IMG/VR virus record: IMGVR_UViG_3300020057_000006 | Coordinates: 1 to 42,169 of that record | Strand: one strand, 5' to 3' | Length of the DNA: 42,169 bases | Source of the DNA: a virus | Shown here: positions 10,491 to 42,169 of the stretch, one piece after another | How the letters are laid out: every line of letters begins with the position of its first letter | Position numbering within the stretch: position 1 is the stretch's first letter | Notes under the pieces: model-generated | Database searches by the model: none | What the model saw: only the letters and a program-made list of their open reading frames with translations | Told to the model about the DNA's origin: nothing | Position numbers and translations under genes: made by a program

Positions 10491-11813
10491 CTAAAAATAT
10501 CCGGTGAATGGATCAGCGTCACGTCGCACTCTTTCCACCAGGCCACGAACATATGCCTTCTTAGAAGCTATACGGTTTTCAGAGTCGGTGTAGATTTGCT
10601 TCCCGCTCGTGCCTAAGCTAAACGCATATCGCAATGCGTCTATGGCGTGGTTGTTCTTGTCTACTGGATTGTCTTTTGTCACCTTGTCATCATTAGGAGC
10701 TGGATAGTGATACCCCGCGATTTCCTCGATTAGGTTGCGACAATGGCGAAACACTTTGAGCCGCCCTGTCTTCATAAGCTCAAAAATGCGCTTGCATCCG
10801 CTTTCAATATCTTTGGCAGGCCCTGAGATACCAGTGATCTGTCCTAAGCCGAAAGCATTAACCAGTTCGCTGATAAGCTGCTTCGACTGGCCATCTGCCC
10901 CAATGCGGGACATCCCTTCATCTTTGATAAAGGCTGCAATGATTCCTAGCTGGCCTACGTTAGCCTTGTAGAATTCCCTGCTCACGTAAAACACTGAAGG
11001 GGATTTCGTAGTGTCCTCAGCGATAGATACACACGCTGTAGGGTCTGCACTACCAAAGTCTAGGCCACCTATACGCTTCCATTCAGAAGGCACTTCAAAG
11101 GCGTCCACCACGTATTCATCTTCATCAAAAGGGAATACAAGCCCTGTCAGCTGTGTAAACTTGCCACAGTAATCCCTTTCGAATATAGCTGCGGGTAAAA
11201 TGTTTCTTAAACGTTCAAACTCTTCTTTGGAGAAGTAGGGGTTGTCAGAAGATGTCCAGTTGATCACTGCAATCGTCTTATCGCCACCCGCCACCGCCAC
11301 GTCATTAACCCGGCCTGCACGCTTAAGAACATCACGCTTGAGCCAATTGGCTGTGTAGGGGGTGGTGGTGTAGAGCCCTCGTCCCATATGAATAGCGACA
11401 CGGGCCATAAGGTTTTGATGCACTTCCCACTTAAACTGTCCAGCCTCGTCACCCCAATAGGCACGAAGGGTCATTGATTCAATATGCTTAGGCTCATCAG
11501 CTGAACGAACGTAAATCCTGTCTCCCCAGACTAATTCAAAACAATGCTTCTGTTCTTTCCATTCCCCCCAGTCTTTGGGCATGATGTCTTTAAACTTAGG
11601 AAGAGCCGCCTGTTCCAATATCTTATTGGTGGGAGCTGTAATGAGGTAGTCACCCCTCAGGCCTTTTTCAAAATTCTTATAGATCTCAGAGCATAGCCAC
11701 ACAGGCCCCACCATCGTCTTACCGCTCTGCTTCCCTGCAATGGCATTAACAAACCGCTCAGGTGCATCTAGGACAAGCTGCTGGTATTTATGAGGCTTGA
11801 ATTCATTGGCCAT
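10491..11813 (-). CDS. Terminase large subunit
   Basis: A 440-residue packaging motor. The ATPase part has Walker A AGKQSGKT near residues 26-33 and Walker B-type YWGDEAG near residue 119, followed by the coupling-motif-like TTTPYT. The RNase H-like nuclease has acidic residues in GLDFGSADP (about 246), GADGQSKQ (about 303) and NHAIDALRYAF (about 390). It cuts concatemers and pumps DNA through the portal encoded next. The upstream sequence lacks a clear Shine-Dalgarno. A rightward gene starts only 40 bp away on the other strand. Confidence 0.92.
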   Translation of the reverse strand: MANEFKPHKYQQLVLDAPERFVNAIAGKQSGKTMVGPVWLCSEIYKNFEKGLRGDYLITAPTNKILEQAALPKFKDIMPKDWGEWKEQKHCFELVWGDRIYVRSADEPKHIESMTLRAYWGDEAGQFKWEVHQNLMARVAIHMGRGLYTTTPYTANWLKRDVLKRAGRVNDVAVAGGDKTIAVINWTSSDNPYFSKEEFERLRNILPAAIFERDYCGKFTQLTGLVFPFDEDEYVVDAFEVPSEWKRIGGLDFGSADPTACVSIAEDTTKSPSVFYVSREFYKANVGQLGIIAAFIKDEGMSRIGADGQSKQLISELVNAFGLGQITGISGPAKDIESGCKRIFELMKTGRLKVFRHCRNLIEEIAGYHYPAPNDDKVTKDNPVDKNNHAIDALRYAFSLGTSGKQIYTDSENRIASKKAYVRGLVERVRRDADPFTGYF

Positions 11814-11853
11814 TTGTTGTATTGTCTGCCCATACCTTTAAAGGAGGATATTT

Positions 11854-12126
11854 ATGAAACTCAAAGCAATGGAACTAGACTCGATGGTGTGGACCAGACA
11901 GCGGCCTTTAAATCAGGAAGTGATGAATCTGGTGTCTGAGCTGCTTAAGGCTGAGAAGGGCAAAACCTACGAAGTGGAGCTGGATAAGCCGATGAAGAGT
12001 CTTAAGGCATCCTTGAACAAACACTTCAAATGCGCTGTTAAGGCGAAGGACAAGACAGGCAAGTCGTTCTACGTGAAGATGCTCACTCGCACATCAAAGG
12101 CTAAGAGGGAAGCAGCCGTTAAATAA
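11854..12126 (+). CDS. Rightward hypothetical protein between terminase subunits
   Basis: A 90-residue basic protein with an excellent RBS (AAAGGAGG about 8 bp before ATG 11854). It begins MKLKAMELDSMVWTRQRP and ends in a Lys/Arg-rich tail, so nucleic-acid binding is conceivable. It lies on the strand opposite to the late genes, divergent from the terminase large subunit. Any promoter must lie inside the first codons of that gene or in the 40-bp gap. It is followed by a hairpin-rich region ending in a terminator-like structure. No family recognised. Confidence 0.65.
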   Translation: MKLKAMELDSMVWTRQRPLNQEVMNLVSELLKAEKGKTYEVELDKPMKSLKASLNKHFKCAVKAKDKTGKSFYVKMLTRTSKAKREAAVK

Positions 12127-12459
12127 CAAATGGTTGCACCAGCCTTGTGCAGGCTTATGGGGCCCGTATGTTCCTCGAACACCAAAGCGCGAAATAGGAG
12201 GTAAGGTTTGCCTTCTTGTTAGGGTTGCATCTCTCTCAAAGAGGGAGCAGCTTGGTTGGCAAACCTTACCAAAATTGAACGCTGGTGACATTACCCTTTC
12301 AGGTTGCTCGCAGAGAAGCGAACCTAGGAATACCATTCTCCTAGTCACAGCAAAATTGAGCAGGTGTTTAACGAGCGTTTCCTGCAAGCTCTGGGGGATG
12401 CACCCCCCGCCTCACGTCTGAGGTCTTTATTGTCCAGGTGGGTCGTTAATTCCACAATC
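12127..12459 (+). ncRNA. Candidate structured RNA or highly structured 3' UTR
   Basis: No convincing gene lies here, but perfect inverted repeats are unusually dense. Pairs are 12135-12139/12147-12151; 12170-12173/12177-12180; 12200-12212/12258-12270 (13 bp, perfect, with an inner CTCTCTC/GAGGGAG stem); 12324-12329/12339-12344; 12393-12397/12403-12407; and 12410-12414/12419-12423. A hairpin with a T-rich tail follows at 12460-12489 in plus orientation. The stretch could be a 3' UTR of the 90-residue gene, an autonomous RNA or an intron remnant. I could not fit it to a known RNA class by eye. Confidence 0.45.
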
Positions 12460-12489
12460 CCTACGTTAATGGGCGTAGGCTTTACTTTT
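12460..12489 (+). terminator. Probable rho-independent terminator, rightward
   Basis: The stem CCTACG/CGTAGG (12460-12465 and 12474-12479) has an 8-nt loop and is followed on the plus strand by CTTTACTTTT. The opposite orientation lacks a U-tract. It would end transcription of the 11854-12126 gene and its structured downstream region. Confidence 0.55.
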
Positions 12490-12514
12490 AAGCTACTGGA
12501 GGGAGTTGTTTGTT

Positions 12515-12697
12515 TTAAGACGCTCTACCCATCCCGTCTTTTGTACAAATCTTGCCTCTTCCTTTAGGCTCATAGTGCTTCTTAGCGTAGCTGATGCTCT
12601 TTGTAGCCTTCTCTTCGCTATCGTGGTGGCTCTTAACGCTTCCGTCCGCTCTCACCACCTGCCACCTACCATCCTTCTTAACTACTAAATTTGACAT
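12515..12697 (-). CDS. DUF2188-like small protein
   Basis: A 60-residue protein from ATG 12695-12697, which follows GGGGGAGATTG. The core VVKKDGRWQVVRADGSVKSH followed by an EEKATKSISYAKKH helix resembles DUF2188-type beta-beta-alpha proteins, which are common in phages and of unknown function. A TTG one codon upstream is a less likely start. It is the first leftward gene upstream of the terminase large subunit, past the hairpin-rich region. Confidence 0.6.
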   Translation of the reverse strand: MSNLVVKKDGRWQVVRADGSVKSHHDSEEKATKSISYAKKHYEPKGRGKICTKDGMGRAS

Positions 12698-12930: not shown

Positions 12931-13258
12931 TTTTTGGGCTCCATGTCAGCTGGAATGTCAGATCTGTACTGGCATCAGATGCAGCATTCCTAGCGAGGAG
13001 ACAGCTGGATCTGGCGTAGACAGTAGCGTTGTATTACGTACATTTTGAAGGGAGAAGGCGCACCGTCCAGCACCCCTGGGGGACATGTCCGCTTTTGTTA
13101 AGCCCTTAACCTACCTTAACAGCCACTTAACCCACCTTAACATGTGACATATTAGTGGCATTCAAATAGGTGGTTGTCCAGATGGTGTCTGGCCACTTCC
13201 TATCTGTACAGTGTCTGTATGCTGGTGTGGATTGTTAAGCTCTCAGAGGGTAGATGGA
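12931..13258. other. Intergenic region downstream of terminase small-like gene
   Basis: About 330 bp without a convincing ORF. It contains a perfect palindrome GGACATGTCC (13081-13090) and then an array of TTAAG-type repeats (annotated separately). Its position next to the terminase small-like gene makes a packaging-site role possible. Confidence 0.4.
13098..13141. repeat. Short tandem repeats, candidate pac/TerS binding site
   Basis: On the minus strand GTTAAG or a close variant recurs about every 10-11 bp (plus-strand copies of CTTAAC near 13105, 13115, 13126 and 13136, plus GTTAAG at 13098). Helically phased copies beside a palindrome are typical of a protein-binding array. Being beside the terminase-small-like gene, a packaging recognition site is one reading; an operator is another. 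Confidence 0.4.
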
Positions 13259-13720
13259 CTACTGAGCGTCTTCTTGATAAGGAGCCGTTACGTCGATTAC
13301 CTCACTAGGTTGGGCAGATGATGGGCGGTTGTTCACGATGAATGCTGTGATCTGAGGACGAGGAGAGTTGACTGGTGTCTGAGCTTCCACCATTTTTGCA
13401 AGCAAGTTAAGGGCTGTTAACTTATGCTTTAGCAGGATGGTTCCATTTACTTCCTCTATTGTGGGGCGGTCAATTAGATTTTTTAGCGTCAGCATCAGCC
13501 CAGCCCTATCAATGCCTTGCCCTTCTAACACCTTAATCAGCTCTTCTTTTAGATCGCTTCTTAACTGATAGGCTGAATGATCAGACCCTTTATAGCCTGC
13601 TTCTCTATAGGCTGTTAAAGTGCTATTGCCTTGTGTTAAGAGTTGTAAAAACAACCTATTCTTAGCTGTTAGCTCTCTTGGCTTATTAAGCGTTAAAGCT
13701 TTATCGTTTAATTCTTCCAT
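13259..13720 (-). CDS. Terminase small subunit-like DNA-binding protein
   Basis: A 153-residue protein. Residues 15-60 read LTAKNRLFLQLLTQGNSTL, then TAYREAGYKGSDHSAYQLRS. This is the arrangement of helix-turn-helix small terminases (phosphoprotein-like lead helix, AYREAGY, then a second helix). A helical oligomerisation region follows, then a Pro-rich, acidic tail ending YQEDAQ. Small terminases bind pac or cos and recruit the large subunit. It lies about 1.4 kb upstream of the large subunit, separated by small genes and a rightward gene, which is unusual. Confidence 0.65.
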   Translation of the reverse strand: MEELNDKALTLNKPRELTAKNRLFLQLLTQGNSTLTAYREAGYKGSDHSAYQLRSDLKEELIKVLEGQGIDRAGLMLTLKNLIDRPTIEEVNGTILLKHKLTALNLLAKMVEAQTPVNSPRPQITAFIVNNRPSSAQPSEVIDVTAPYQEDAQ

Positions 13721-13916: not shown

Positions 13917-14324
13917 CTAAACCAATAAACTTGCCAGTGAAGCGGATACGGCTTTCGGAGTACGAAACACTTGTTGGGATGTAAATCTCACTACCTGGTA
14001 GCCTTTAGACGCGAGGTAGGCATCCCTCGCAGCATCATAGGACTCTCGCCCCTTGTGACACATTCCGTCTGTTTCAATAATAGTCTTGCCTATAAGGAAG
14101 TCGACGATGTAGCTACCAATAATTGATTGTCTAACGAAGCTTATGCCAAGTTCTTTCAGTATGCCAGCCATAGCATTTTCTAATGGGTTGTATGCCGCTA
14201 ATTGACCCTTTCTGAACGCTCCCAGCGCGTTACTAACAGCACCGTTACTGGCCTTCCACTTCTGTATAAACTTCGATTCTTTCTTCTCCCAGCTATACTG
14301 TTTGATTCGGATAAACGTTTTCAT
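13917..14324 (-). CDS. DUF559/Vsr-like endonuclease
   Basis: A 135-residue protein. Residues about 45-125 form a PD-(D/E)XK-type core: NPLENAMAGILKELGI (glutamate on the first helix), GSYIVDFLI (catalytic aspartate), IIETDGMCH (ExD) and VVRFTSQQVF. This arrangement is that of DUF559, related to very-short-patch repair nucleases. The N-terminal 40 residues are basic. Such free-standing nucleases are often mobile or repair-related in phages. It is divergent from the rightward gene array. Confidence 0.7.
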   Translation of the reverse strand: MKTFIRIKQYSWEKKESKFIQKWKASNGAVSNALGAFRKGQLAAYNPLENAMAGILKELGISFVRQSIIGSYIVDFLIGKTIIETDGMCHKGRESYDAARDAYLASKGYQVVRFTSQQVFRTPKAVSASLASLLV

Positions 14325-18611: not shown

Positions 18612-18758
18612 TCAGGTGTCCACTTCCTTATTGGGCTTAATCGACACGGTGTTGAATTCAATCTTCAAAGGTACATGATCGTATGGGCACTCAGTAACTT
18701 TCTCTTTCGTTTGCCAGATTCTGCTACATTTTGGACAAGCGAATTCGATCTTATACAC
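18612..18758 (-). CDS. Zinc-ribbon-like small protein (48 aa)
   Basis: GTG 18756-18758 overlaps the ligase stop by 8 bp, with AAAGGA upstream; TGA lies at 18612-18614. It starts MYKIEFACPKCSRIWQTKEK. CPKC and CPYDH can form a Cys3His-type zinc site. It is translationally coupled to the ligase. Confidence 0.55.
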   Translation of the reverse strand: MYKIEFACPKCSRIWQTKEKVTECPYDHVPLKIEFNTVSIKPNKEVDT

Positions 18759-19368
18759 TCGGCTGTCCTTTGGCTTTTTCGTCACTCTCAACAGTTTTCT
18801 TATAGTATTGCTTAGACGCTGTGTGAAATATCACAATGCCTTCGGGCTGCATAAACCCCGGAGCGACATGACTCCCTGTGATTTTAAGAGTGTCTAGGAG
18901 GCCATTGATCACCTGCGTGTTAAACTCCCCTGAGTACAGTATCGGAACTTCATTCACACAGAGAGGGCCTCCGTCAATCCATTTCGGCCGGAATAAGGAG
19001 AAGTGTTTTTCACTCTCTCCATAGCCTCTATTGATTCCCTCCCCCCACCACTCCCCGTAATGGCGGCCTGGACCTAGCTTAAGCAGCTCTTCTCTGTTTG
19101 CTCCAACCCACGCAGCAAACCCGTGGTTGTCCGTGGTCTTGCCGGGTGTCACCCACCGACTCCGAGATCCTGCTAACACAGTCTTTAAGTCGTCGGAGAT
19201 AAAGACCTGCGCATTAGTGCCATCGATCTTCTCAGTTACCACGCAATCCCTGCTTAGTCGCGGGATCTTGTTAAACGATCTAAACTCATAGAGAGGTACT
19301 ACTAGAGCCTCACTATCAGTGCTAGTCGGCTCTTCGCCATACACACTACTGAATGTATTTACAAGCAT
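18751..19368 (-). CDS. RNA ligase family nucleotidyltransferase
   Basis: A 205-residue enzyme of the ATP-dependent ligase superfamily. Motif I TEKIDGTNAQ (about residue 46, adenylated Lys), motif III HYGEWWGEGI (about 106), motif IIIa FSLFRPKW, motif IV PEGIVIF (about 176) and motif V YYKK (about 186) are all visible. There is no extra domain, so it resembles short phage RNA-ligase-type proteins. It would seal RNA or nicked nucleic acid using ATP. ATG 19366-19368 overlaps the protease stop as TGATG; a GTG one codon earlier is possible. Coupling to an exported protease is odd. Substrate cannot be told from sequence. Confidence 0.8.
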   Translation of the reverse strand: MLVNTFSSVYGEEPTSTDSEALVVPLYEFRSFNKIPRLSRDCVVTEKIDGTNAQVFISDDLKTVLAGSRSRWVTPGKTTDNHGFAAWVGANREELLKLGPGRHYGEWWGEGINRGYGESEKHFSLFRPKWIDGGPLCVNEVPILYSGEFNTQVINGLLDTLKITGSHVAPGFMQPEGIVIFHTASKQYYKKTVESDEKAKGQPSV

Positions 19369-20081
19369 CACTTAGCTCCTAAGAAATCATTAATATCCTC
19401 GAGCAGTACAGCTAGGTGCATGCCTTCAGCTGTGGAAAATGTACCACTTCTGAATGTGGCGACATTAACACCAACCAATTCGCCGTTAGCATTCACCAAA
19501 GGGCCACCACTGTTACCGGGATTGATAGAGGCTGTGTGCATCGTGAACGTCTCATCCCCCCGAGGATGTCTAGCTCTAGGGTTACTTACATATCCCAATG
19601 TCGCTGTATGAGAGATACCTAACGGGCTGCCAAACGACACTACAGGTTGACCACGCTCCACAGCTTTACCAAGCTTGAAGTGAGGCTGTTTAGTTAGCGG
19701 AAACACTTTCAACAGTGCAAGGTCAGTAGTTGAACTAACGCCAATCAAAAACGCTGTGTACTTCCGGTTGTCGGAAGTCTTAACAGTAATTACCATGTCA
19801 GTCATAGGCTCATCGAACAAGTGGTAGCAGGTGAGGATGAATCCATCACTACTGATAAATGAGCCCGTTCCACCATATGCGACAGTCTTTGTTGAGCGTT
19901 CTACAATAACAGCTTTAGTACTCTTGTCGGTATCAAGGAATGCTCCGTCTGGCACTACAACCACGCCTTTAACCTGAATATCTACGACTTTAGGGAGTAC
20001 GGAATTCGCCAACGCTTGGTAATTATCCAAAGCGCACGCAATAGATGATAACAGCAGCAGCAGAGCCGTGACAGTTTTCAT
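19368..20081 (-). CDS. Exported trypsin-like (HtrA-type) serine protease
   Basis: A 237-residue protein with an N-terminal signal peptide (MKTVTALLLLLSSIACA; likely cut after ACA, although a lipobox reading SIAC is imaginable). The S1 triad is intact: His in LTCYH (about 86), Asp in TTDLALLKV (about 120) and Ser in NPGNSGGPLV (about 189). The fold is that of the DegP/HtrA protease domain without a PDZ domain. It would act in the periplasm or outside. Start ATG 20079-20081 overlaps the previous stop as TAATG. Secreted proteases are rare in phages; superinfection control, periplasmic remodelling or lysogenic conversion are possible roles. Confidence 0.85.
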   Translation of the reverse strand: MKTVTALLLLLSSIACALDNYQALANSVLPKVVDIQVKGVVVVPDGAFLDTDKSTKAVIVERSTKTVAYGGTGSFISSDGFILTCYHLFDEPMTDMVITVKTSDNRKYTAFLIGVSSTTDLALLKVFPLTKQPHFKLGKAVERGQPVVSFGSPLGISHTATLGYVSNPRARHPRGDETFTMHTASINPGNSGGPLVNANGELVGVNVATFRSGTFSTAEGMHLAVLLEDINDFLGAK

Positions 20082-35426: not shown

Positions 35427-35444
35427 TGCATAACATTGCAATGC
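35427..35444. repeat. 18-bp direct repeat, copy 1 (operator candidate)
   Basis: TGCATAACATTGCAATGC, identical to 35490-35507, 63 bp apart; each holds the 10-bp palindrome CATTGCAATG. The pair flanks the likely promoter region of the 35209-35400 gene. Confidence 0.7.
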
Positions 35445-35489: not shown

Positions 35490-35507
35490 TGCATAACATT
35501 GCAATGC
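35490..35507. repeat. 18-bp direct repeat, copy 2 (operator candidate)
   Basis: Exact copy of 35427-35444. It lies between the late terminator and the 35209-35400 gene, fitting a two-site repressor operator. Confidence 0.7.
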
Positions 35508-35509
35508 AT

Positions 35510-35558
35510 AAAAAAAAAGCCCCCTAGGCTATACCTTTTCAGATATAGTCTAGAGGGC
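35510..35558 (-). terminator. Strong terminator of the late operon
   Basis: On the minus strand a 15-bp stem (35544-35558 with 35519-35533, two non-canonical positions) and a 10-nt loop are followed by nine U. It lies just past the NlpC/P60 stop (35571) and separates the late block from the 63-residue gene. Confidence 0.85.
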
Positions 35559-35570
35559 ATTTGCAGCTAT

Positions 35571-36119: not shown

Positions 36120-36320
36120 TTAGTGAATCGTTTTAATGAGGGCTAGAATAATGCCTACAATTAAGCTTCCTGTAGAGGCTACGGCTGCTGCTACGCAGCC
36201 ATACACTCCACGCTTAATCCAAGCAATATCAGTCCTAATCTCTCCCGATTCCATAAGGTGCTGTGCCACTGCGGCTTCAATCTTCGTTAAACGAATGAGT
36301 ATGTGGGATTCTTTTGGCAT
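36120..36320 (-). CDS. XhlA-like membrane protein, holin candidate
   Basis: A 66-residue protein. A helical N-terminus (IRLTKIEAAVAQHLMESGEI) leads through DIAWIKRGVYGC to a membrane segment CVAAAVASTGSLIVGIILAL and a short basic end. DIAWIKRxVxG before the span is the style of haemolysin XhlA proteins that accompany phage lysis enzymes. It directly precedes the zinc-ribbon and endopeptidase genes, suggesting a lysis role. Confidence 0.6.
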   Translation of the reverse strand: MPKESHILIRLTKIEAAVAQHLMESGEIRTDIAWIKRGVYGCVAAAVASTGSLIVGIILALIKTIH

Positions 36321-40432: not shown

Positions 40433-42169
40433 TATCTAGGTTCTCCATTTCTAATCCAAGCACTAAGCTTTATGGATTCAATTTGACAAGTACGCGCGTC
40501 ATTACTGACGAGCCTAACGATATGCGACGATCCGGTAGCGTTGTCTGTGGAGAATACTGGCTGGAGTCTTATGATGAACGGCATGCCGTCATTCACGGTT
40601 GTGAACGTCGTTAATCCAGTCAGCGGATTTACCATCTGCTTCCAGGTTGCGCCGTCATCTACTGAGTACTGAGGAGTGTAGGCAGCTCCAGTACCTTTTC
40701 CGGTCACGTACACTTTTCGGAGTATTTTGGTGTGTTCTGTGTCCTCGTAACTAATAGCAGCTGTCTGAATGTCTAGCTCAATATTAGTGCCTTGGTCGTC
40801 TAATCCAGTAAGCCATTTAACCACTCGGCCTTCTGTGGATCTGCCATAGTACACGTCATTGAAGAAGGACGTGAAACAGTTGATAGCTAAACCACGGTAT
40901 ACCCTAAAGTTATTATCTTTTTCAAGTTTGAATACGATGTTATTAGTCGTCTGTCCATACTCTGCGGCAGATAAGTAGTAGCTGAGCCCATCGAAGATTG
41001 ACGCAACACGGATACTCTGTGTGCTAGAGATAAACCAGTTGACAACAACGCTGTCAATGGACGCCTGAGCATCAGCAGTCGAGGTTAACGTACCTCTCCA
41101 TTGAATGAACGGGTTAACAGTGGCTGTGATATACGTTCCACTTGTCACCGTCACCCAACTAGCCCCAGCCAGTCCACCAGAGTTAGCAGCTGTTTTAACA
41201 CTCCATGTCACTGTGCCTAACGAGCCGATAGCCGCTGTGAACAGTTCCCAACCTACAGGAGTGGCACCCGTATCAATCGCAGAAGAAACTAGCGTAGAAA
41301 CCACGGTGCTTCTGAGAATAACGCTAGAGACTGACGCTGTGAGAGCATTGGCAGCGTCAGAAGTTAAGGTAATCCTTATCTTCGTGTACCGCGCAGGAGT
41401 GGCCGATCCAACTACCGAGTAGGCACTGTAAGTGCTATTATCCGAAGAGGTGGCTACTTCCGAAGAGACACTTGTACCAGTCGGAATGCTGCTTGTGACG
41501 GTAAGCGAGTTAAGTGCAGTGATGTCTGTTGTGTGGTCAATCGCCGCACTAACCCAAGTGGATGTTCCTGTAAACTTTAGTGTAGGTGCTCCTGCAATGG
41601 AGGAGTAAACGTCGTCTGTTGTAGAGAGCTGTATTTTGACTCTCCAATAACGCCTACCCGCTAACGCTACCGCTGAGCTTCCATTTAAGTTACTGTACAC
41701 CTGCGATACGTCCCACGTCGATCCGTTATTGCTACCTTCTACAGTAGTTGTGGTGGATGTTGTATATGTGCTGGTGACTGTTGTACTTGTATGTGAAATA
41801 GTTGCAGGAACAGCAGCATCTGAGTTAGTGTCATGTGTTGCAGAGGTCCATGTACCTGTGTTGGAAACAGTCGCAGACGTATAGGCGTATGTTAGGGCCA
41901 TACTAGTGCACGTTTGTCCAACACTGTCTTGAATAGACGACCAACTTGACGCATCCGCACTACGCTTTGCACTAGATCCGGATACTGATCCGCCGAAATC
42001 ACCACTCCAAGCCGAATGACTTGTACAATTAAACACAAGCCAATATGCTATGTTAGGAGCGTAAGACCAGGAGCAGGAAGTCGATTTAAATCCAGAAGCT
42101 GCTCCAGCACCTACAGTGATTGTGCCTAAGGTGGCAACTAAGCTCCCAGGATTTCCGGAGTTGTCAGAA
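40432..42169 (-). CDS. Tail nozzle protein, C-terminal part (same gene as 1-1827)
   Basis: The open frame enters from the right edge and ends at TAA 40432-40434. Bases 42042-40432 give residues 610-1145 of the protein begun at 1827. A GTG at 42034-42036 could be mistaken for a start, but it is an internal valine. Residues 610 to about 880 are Ser/Thr-rich and look like discoidin or choice-of-anchor-type beta-sandwiches. Residues from about 880 return to propeller-like sequence (SIFDGLSYYLSAAEYG, NDVYYGRSTEGRVVKWL). So a large, possibly glycan-binding, region appears to be inserted into the nozzle. The stop overlaps the next start as TAATG. Confidence 0.72.
   Translation of the reverse strand, partial: SDNSGNPGSLVATLGTITVGAGAASGFKSTSCSWSYAPNIAYWLVFNCTSHSAWSGDFGGSVSGSSAKRSADASSWSSIQDSVGQTCTSMALTYAYTSATVSNTGTWTSATHDTNSDAAVPATISHTSTTVTSTYTTSTTTTVEGSNNGSTWDVSQVYSNLNGSSAVALAGRRYWRVKIQLSTTDDVYSSIAGAPTLKFTGTSTWVSAAIDHTTDITALNSLTVTSSIPTGTSVSSEVATSSDNSTYSAYSVVGSATPARYTKIRITLTSDAANALTASVSSVILRSTVVSTLVSSAIDTGATPVGWELFTAAIGSLGTVTWSVKTAANSGGLAGASWVTVTSGTYITATVNPFIQWRGTLTSTADAQASIDSVVVNWFISSTQSIRVASIFDGLSYYLSAAEYGQTTNNIVFKLEKDNNFRVYRGLAINCFTSFFNDVYYGRSTEGRVVKWLTGLDDQGTNIELDIQTAAISYEDTEHTKILRKVYVTGKGTGAAYTPQYSVDDGATWKQMVNPLTGLTTFTTVNDGMPFIIRLQPVFSTDNATGSSHIVRLVSNDARTCQIESIKLSAWIRNGEPR
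42043..42169. repeat. Right copy of 127-bp terminal direct repeat
   Basis: This is an exact duplicate of 1-127. Base 42042 joins base 1 when the redundancy is removed, giving a 42042-bp circle. It lies wholly inside the coding frame of the tail nozzle gene. Confidence 0.93.

Follow-up and report, generated by a model that had tools for sequence, protein, structure and literature searches.

A strongly folded non-coding stretch between the terminase genes of an uncultivated phage as a candidate 3′ untranslated RNA of an accessory unit

What kind of element is the non-coding stretch between the two terminase genes of IMGVR_UViG_3300020057_000006, an uncultivated tailed phage of a podovirus group: an RNA in its own right, a DNA site, or the trailing part of a message? 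The original prediction had proposed a dedicated RNA at 12127–12489 of this record, whose 42,169 nucleotides form the window analyzed here. Positions 1–127 are identical to 42043–42169, and these 127-bp ends mark the phage genome as complete, closed into a circle or else bearing terminal repeats. Genes for an SU10-type portal, TerL, capsid protein, DNA polymerase A, primase-helicase, and integrase were recognized, along with one for tRNA-Ala. Close to the integrase and tRNA-Ala, two identical 18-bp copies of TGCATAACATTGCAATGC with an operator-like appearance (35427–35444 and 35490–35507) precede a strong terminator-like hairpin of leftward orientation (35518–35560), and on the minus strand at 18751–20081 an RNA ligase-like gene adjoins a trypsin-like peptidase gene. 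Host searches of bacterial genomes, for TerL relatives and with the tRNA-Ala sequence, returned none.

The stretch is indeed non-coding and flanked by the terminase subunit genes, as had been claimed. Assignment of the right-hand gene as TerS is based on its resemblance to the ORF immediately before terL in a relative, L084. The terS–terL interval spans 1,445 bp and comprises a rightward 90-aa gene, the stretch itself, and a short leftward ORF:

10491–11813, minus strand: terL, terminase large subunit (Pfam Terminase_6C/6N and PHROG terL matches; 49% identity to L084 TerL); left border of the island
11797–11825, plus strand: weak promoter-like site within the terL start, read from the sequence (TTGAAT-17-TATTGT, 8/12 matches)
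11854–12126, plus strand: 90-aa accessory gene of no recognizable family; ATG at 11854, ribosome binding site AAAGGAGG at 11840–11847
12137–12191, plus strand: linker from gene to hairpin, deleted in the sibling by alignment; unstructured beyond chance (z +0.7 for 12127–12191)
12198–12272, plus strand: main hairpin, with a perfect 13-bp stem (12200–12212/12258–12270) and a nested stem of ~14 bp with G-U pairs
12273–12459, plus strand: rest of the untranslated RNA, with competing folds and several minor hairpins; near chance level
12460–12489, plus strand: intrinsic-terminator-like hairpin (CCTACG..CGTAGG stem, 12460–12479) with T-rich tail CTTTACTTTT
12515–12694, minus strand: convergent 59-aa ORF with weak DUF2188 similarity (sub-threshold Pfam match, E 0.005)
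13259–13720, minus strand: putative terS, terminase small subunit (43% identity to the L084 ORF; weak PHROG terS match); right border of the island

A coding role for 12127–12489 was rejected, as it contains only GTG/TTG ORFs whose frames are disrupted by indels in the sibling contig described below; likewise, the linker was dismissed as a degenerate tRNA for want of an ARAGORN or Rfam match. Beyond the interval, a DUF559-type nuclease gene (13917–14324; weak homing-endonuclease match) neighbors terS. Inside it, immediately downstream of terS, lie phased CTTAAC repeats (13095–13142; four in 37 bp, spaced by 10–11 bp), a candidate protein-binding array and perhaps a packaging or replication site.

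A rightward gene with a strong ribosome binding site had been said to precede the stretch, and the plus-strand ORF at 11854–12126 with its upstream AAAGGAGG bears this out. Searches with the 90-aa protein in viral contigs, phages, Pfam, PHROGs, PADLOC, and the PDB retrieved the sibling and sub-threshold matches only, and single-sequence structure prediction was of low confidence (pLDDT 69). The promoter-like site ahead of the gene scores below the threshold of our promoter scan.

The stretch had further been described as hairpin-dense, with at least seven perfect inverted repeats, a description that did not survive comparison with dinucleotide shuffles: its ten non-overlapping perfect repeats of at least 5 bp compare with 8.8 ± 1.9 in the shuffles, a count attained by 35% of them and by 22% of equal-size genome windows, and longer repeats are no more frequent than expected (3 vs 3.2 for at least 6 bp; 1 vs 1.0 for at least 7 bp). 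Folding energy, proposed as a check, gave the opposite result, with 12127–12489 being more stable than 100 of 100 shuffles (z −3.4) and 12192–12489 reaching z −4.3; the minus strand gives −2.4. This excess is confined to 12198–12272, since z-scores elsewhere are unexceptional (+0.7 for 12127–12191, −1.5 for 12273–12352, −1.1 for 12273–12455, and −1.2 for 12354–12490). There, the anticipated 13-bp stem with a nested stem was recovered as a plus-strand hairpin that is exceptional by several measures: it folds at z −6.7 with a stem pair probability of 1.0, its 13-bp stem never arises in shuffles, and none of ~8,400 80-nt genome windows (both strands, step 10) yields a more stable fold. Owing to the G-U pairs of the nested stem, it is more stable as plus-strand RNA (−41.3 kcal/mol) than as minus-strand RNA (−27.6 kcal/mol). 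With 29 pairs interrupted by internal loops, it exceeds the 20-pair stem in an untranslated region that we took as the mark of an RNase III-type site. Other strong local folds occur elsewhere, among them a hairpin (−40 kcal/mol, z −5.4) within a minus-strand 66-aa ORF at 36120–36320, which ranks among the strongest of the genome, and a strong plus-strand hairpin formed by short tandem repeat arrays (TATAGAGC and AGTTTGTTCTAT units) in the intergenic segment 31256–31383.

The rightward terminator expected at the end of the stretch is likewise present as a terminator-like hairpin, a G+C-rich stem at 12460–12479 running into the T-rich CTTTACTTTT. Four such sites were found in the region vs 2.1 expected, so that 12460–12489 by itself is weak evidence.

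Pattern scans of viral contigs uncovered a single relative carrying the RNA, the sibling contig IMGVR_UViG_3300015360_001643 (L002 and L083 in our set), which is ~99% identical across the neighboring 5.5 kb; the first scan pattern partly overlapped a segment that this contig lacks. As the sibling stops at window position 12403, the comparison covers the RNA up to there. It has lost 135 bp (45 codons, in frame)—half of the 90-aa gene—as well as the 55 nt immediately upstream of the hairpin, while the hairpin itself is retained; consequently, the latter begins about a dozen nucleotides past the stop codon in the sibling, compared with 74 nt in this phage. Six substitutions fall in the portion covered, five of them within 12357–12386. 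Among these five, A-A at 12359/12386 is replaced by U-G, and 12379 T>A disrupts a predicted long-range helix, so that a local stem at 12357–12388 is favored in the sibling. The sibling RNA folds at z −4.4. Together, its substitutions shift the plus-strand fold by −0.4 kcal/mol and the minus-strand fold by +6.2 kcal/mol; a strand difference this large or larger occurred in 3% of random substitution sets of the same type (20% for the plus-strand change alone). The proposed search for compensatory changes, made on the consensus aligned with the sibling, yielded zero pairs kept through changes on both sides. Coming from one sibling and few substitutions, the pattern is suggestive only, and would favor a plus-strand RNA.

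These observations bear on whether the fold might be incidental to a DNA element, either a palindrome that functions in protein binding, replication, or packaging, or a very small insertion bearing inverted repeats. We judge this improbable. A perfect 13-bp inverted repeat in the gap between terminase genes, a possible place for packaging sites, would suit such an element, as would the phased CTTAAC repeats nearby at 13104–13142. However, the nested stem depends on G-U pairing and forms well only in plus-strand RNA, and in the sibling the main-stem substitution 12260 C>T breaks one of the 13 DNA complements, yet the RNA pair persists as G-U instead of G-C. The orientation of the terminator also speaks against a DNA element, and no further copy of the hairpin was detected in the window or the fetched loci, apart from the sibling.

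Alignment-based searches added 14 more distant relatives with TerL proteins 41–49% identical to that of this phage. A covariance model of the RNA core (R1) matched none of the 14, several of which are fragments that may carry the RNA elsewhere in their genomes, the gap being whole in ten; the 90-aa protein had no match in any of the 13 relatives searched. Instead, seven of the 14 (L086, L088, L089, L090, L091, L092, and L103) harbor tRNA genes (Thr-TGT, Met-CAT, His-GTG) in the gap, directly before terL and on its strand, relatives devoid of tRNA genes there possess small ORFs, and in L084 terS and terL are ~100 bp apart. The terS–terL gap is thus a variable accessory island.

The location had been taken to recall packaging-associated RNAs, and an RNA acting within the terminase motor in the manner of the phi29 packaging RNA would share with the latter its nearness to packaging genes. 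Position between terS and terL is all that speaks for it, and since relatives with the same motor (homologous TerL and portal) lack the RNA, the idea is unsupported. Moreover, the gap is variable, the transcript would run on the strand opposite to the packaging genes, and no match to the phi29 RNA was seen in sequence or, at gathering or relaxed thresholds, with the pRNA covariance model of Rfam. This phage belongs to a different group from phi29 and has another type of terminase, a conventional two-subunit one, and conservation with the motor, as expected of a phi29-type RNA, is not seen among the 14 relatives with model R1. We therefore regard a packaging RNA as exceedingly improbable.

Is the RNA, then, a dedicated one? 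That no homology to a known RNA is visible was confirmed: with either gathering or relaxed thresholds, scanning against Rfam returned only tRNAs, and searches for DNA similarity in phages and plasmids gave nothing meaningful. Phage-encoded small RNAs are a known kind (reviewed in PMC12197685) and, like the present stretch, can be untranslated RNAs of up to a few hundred nucleotides in phage accessory regions; ours is a predicted one. A trans-acting small RNA of about 12192–12489, whether transcribed from a dedicated promoter or processed out of the 3′ portion of the 90-aa message, and targeting host or phage RNA or protein, would accord with the fold of this segment (z −4.3) and with the RNA core being kept in the sibling when adjoining coding and linker sequence was deleted. 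Yet structure outside the single hairpin is at chance level, covarying pairs and Rfam matches are missing, all 14 relatives lack it, and the promoter scan revealed no promoter-like site directly ahead of 12192–12489, leaving such an RNA unlikely. As for the claim of a dedicated RNA, its rightward, structured nature is upheld by the strand asymmetry of the hairpin, the orientation of the terminator, and sibling substitutions that hurt the minus-strand but not the plus-strand fold, whereas its dedicated status is not, most of the region being no more structured than shuffles.

The larger ornate phage RNAs GOLLD and ROOL, often found near tRNA islands (GOLLD often exceeding 800 nt; PMC12286853), resemble this locus in being structured and phage-encoded, and in that the equivalent gap of relatives holds tRNA genes. 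In contrast to them, the RNA here is ~290 nt long, has its excess folding in one hairpin only, and shows no covariation, and their Rfam models found no match in it at either threshold. It is decidedly doubtful that it constitutes a lineage-specific regulatory RNA of ~290 nt, built from one very stable hairpin with possible loop–loop contacts (UUAACGA at 12368–12374 with UCGUUAA at 12443–12449) and lying antisense to the packaging operon, within an island occupied by tRNA genes in relatives.

We consider it somewhat probable that the stretch belongs to an accessory transcription unit (~11.83–12.49 kb) as its structured 3′ untranslated RNA, in which a hairpin that stabilizes the message or is of the RNase III type precedes a terminator. 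Ribosome binding site, gene, hairpin, and terminator succeed one another on one strand in support of this, while the weak promoter candidate (8/12) argues against it. The distance from the stop codon to the hairpin, 74 nt here and about a dozen in the sibling, means that a 3′ untranslated region suffices as an explanation; retention of the hairpin despite the loss of half the gene would also be compatible with an RNA that is important on its own. Messages of T7-like phages have structured 3′ UTRs with RNase III-type hairpins. Similarly, a long, imperfect hairpin here, its ~29 pairs interrupted by an asymmetric internal loop, stands behind a small gene, with further untranslated RNA after it, though as one site rather than a series and in a predicted RNase III-type role. 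We infer both that the region is transcribed and that the hairpin acts in stabilization or processing. Within such a rightward unit of the accessory island, 12198–12272 would shield the 3′ end of the message against exonucleases or, alternatively, serve as a double-strand cleavage site of the RNase III type, assuming that the host has RNase III. The hairpin at 12460–12489 would then halt transcription before it could run antisense into terS.

Should the hairpin mark where an accessory message ends, its role would be an ordinary one; discovery of a discrete RNA, by contrast, would add a new phage RNA specific to this lineage. For this little-known podovirus group, the terS–terL gap emerges as a site where small RNA genes—the tRNAs of relatives—and accessory units gather.
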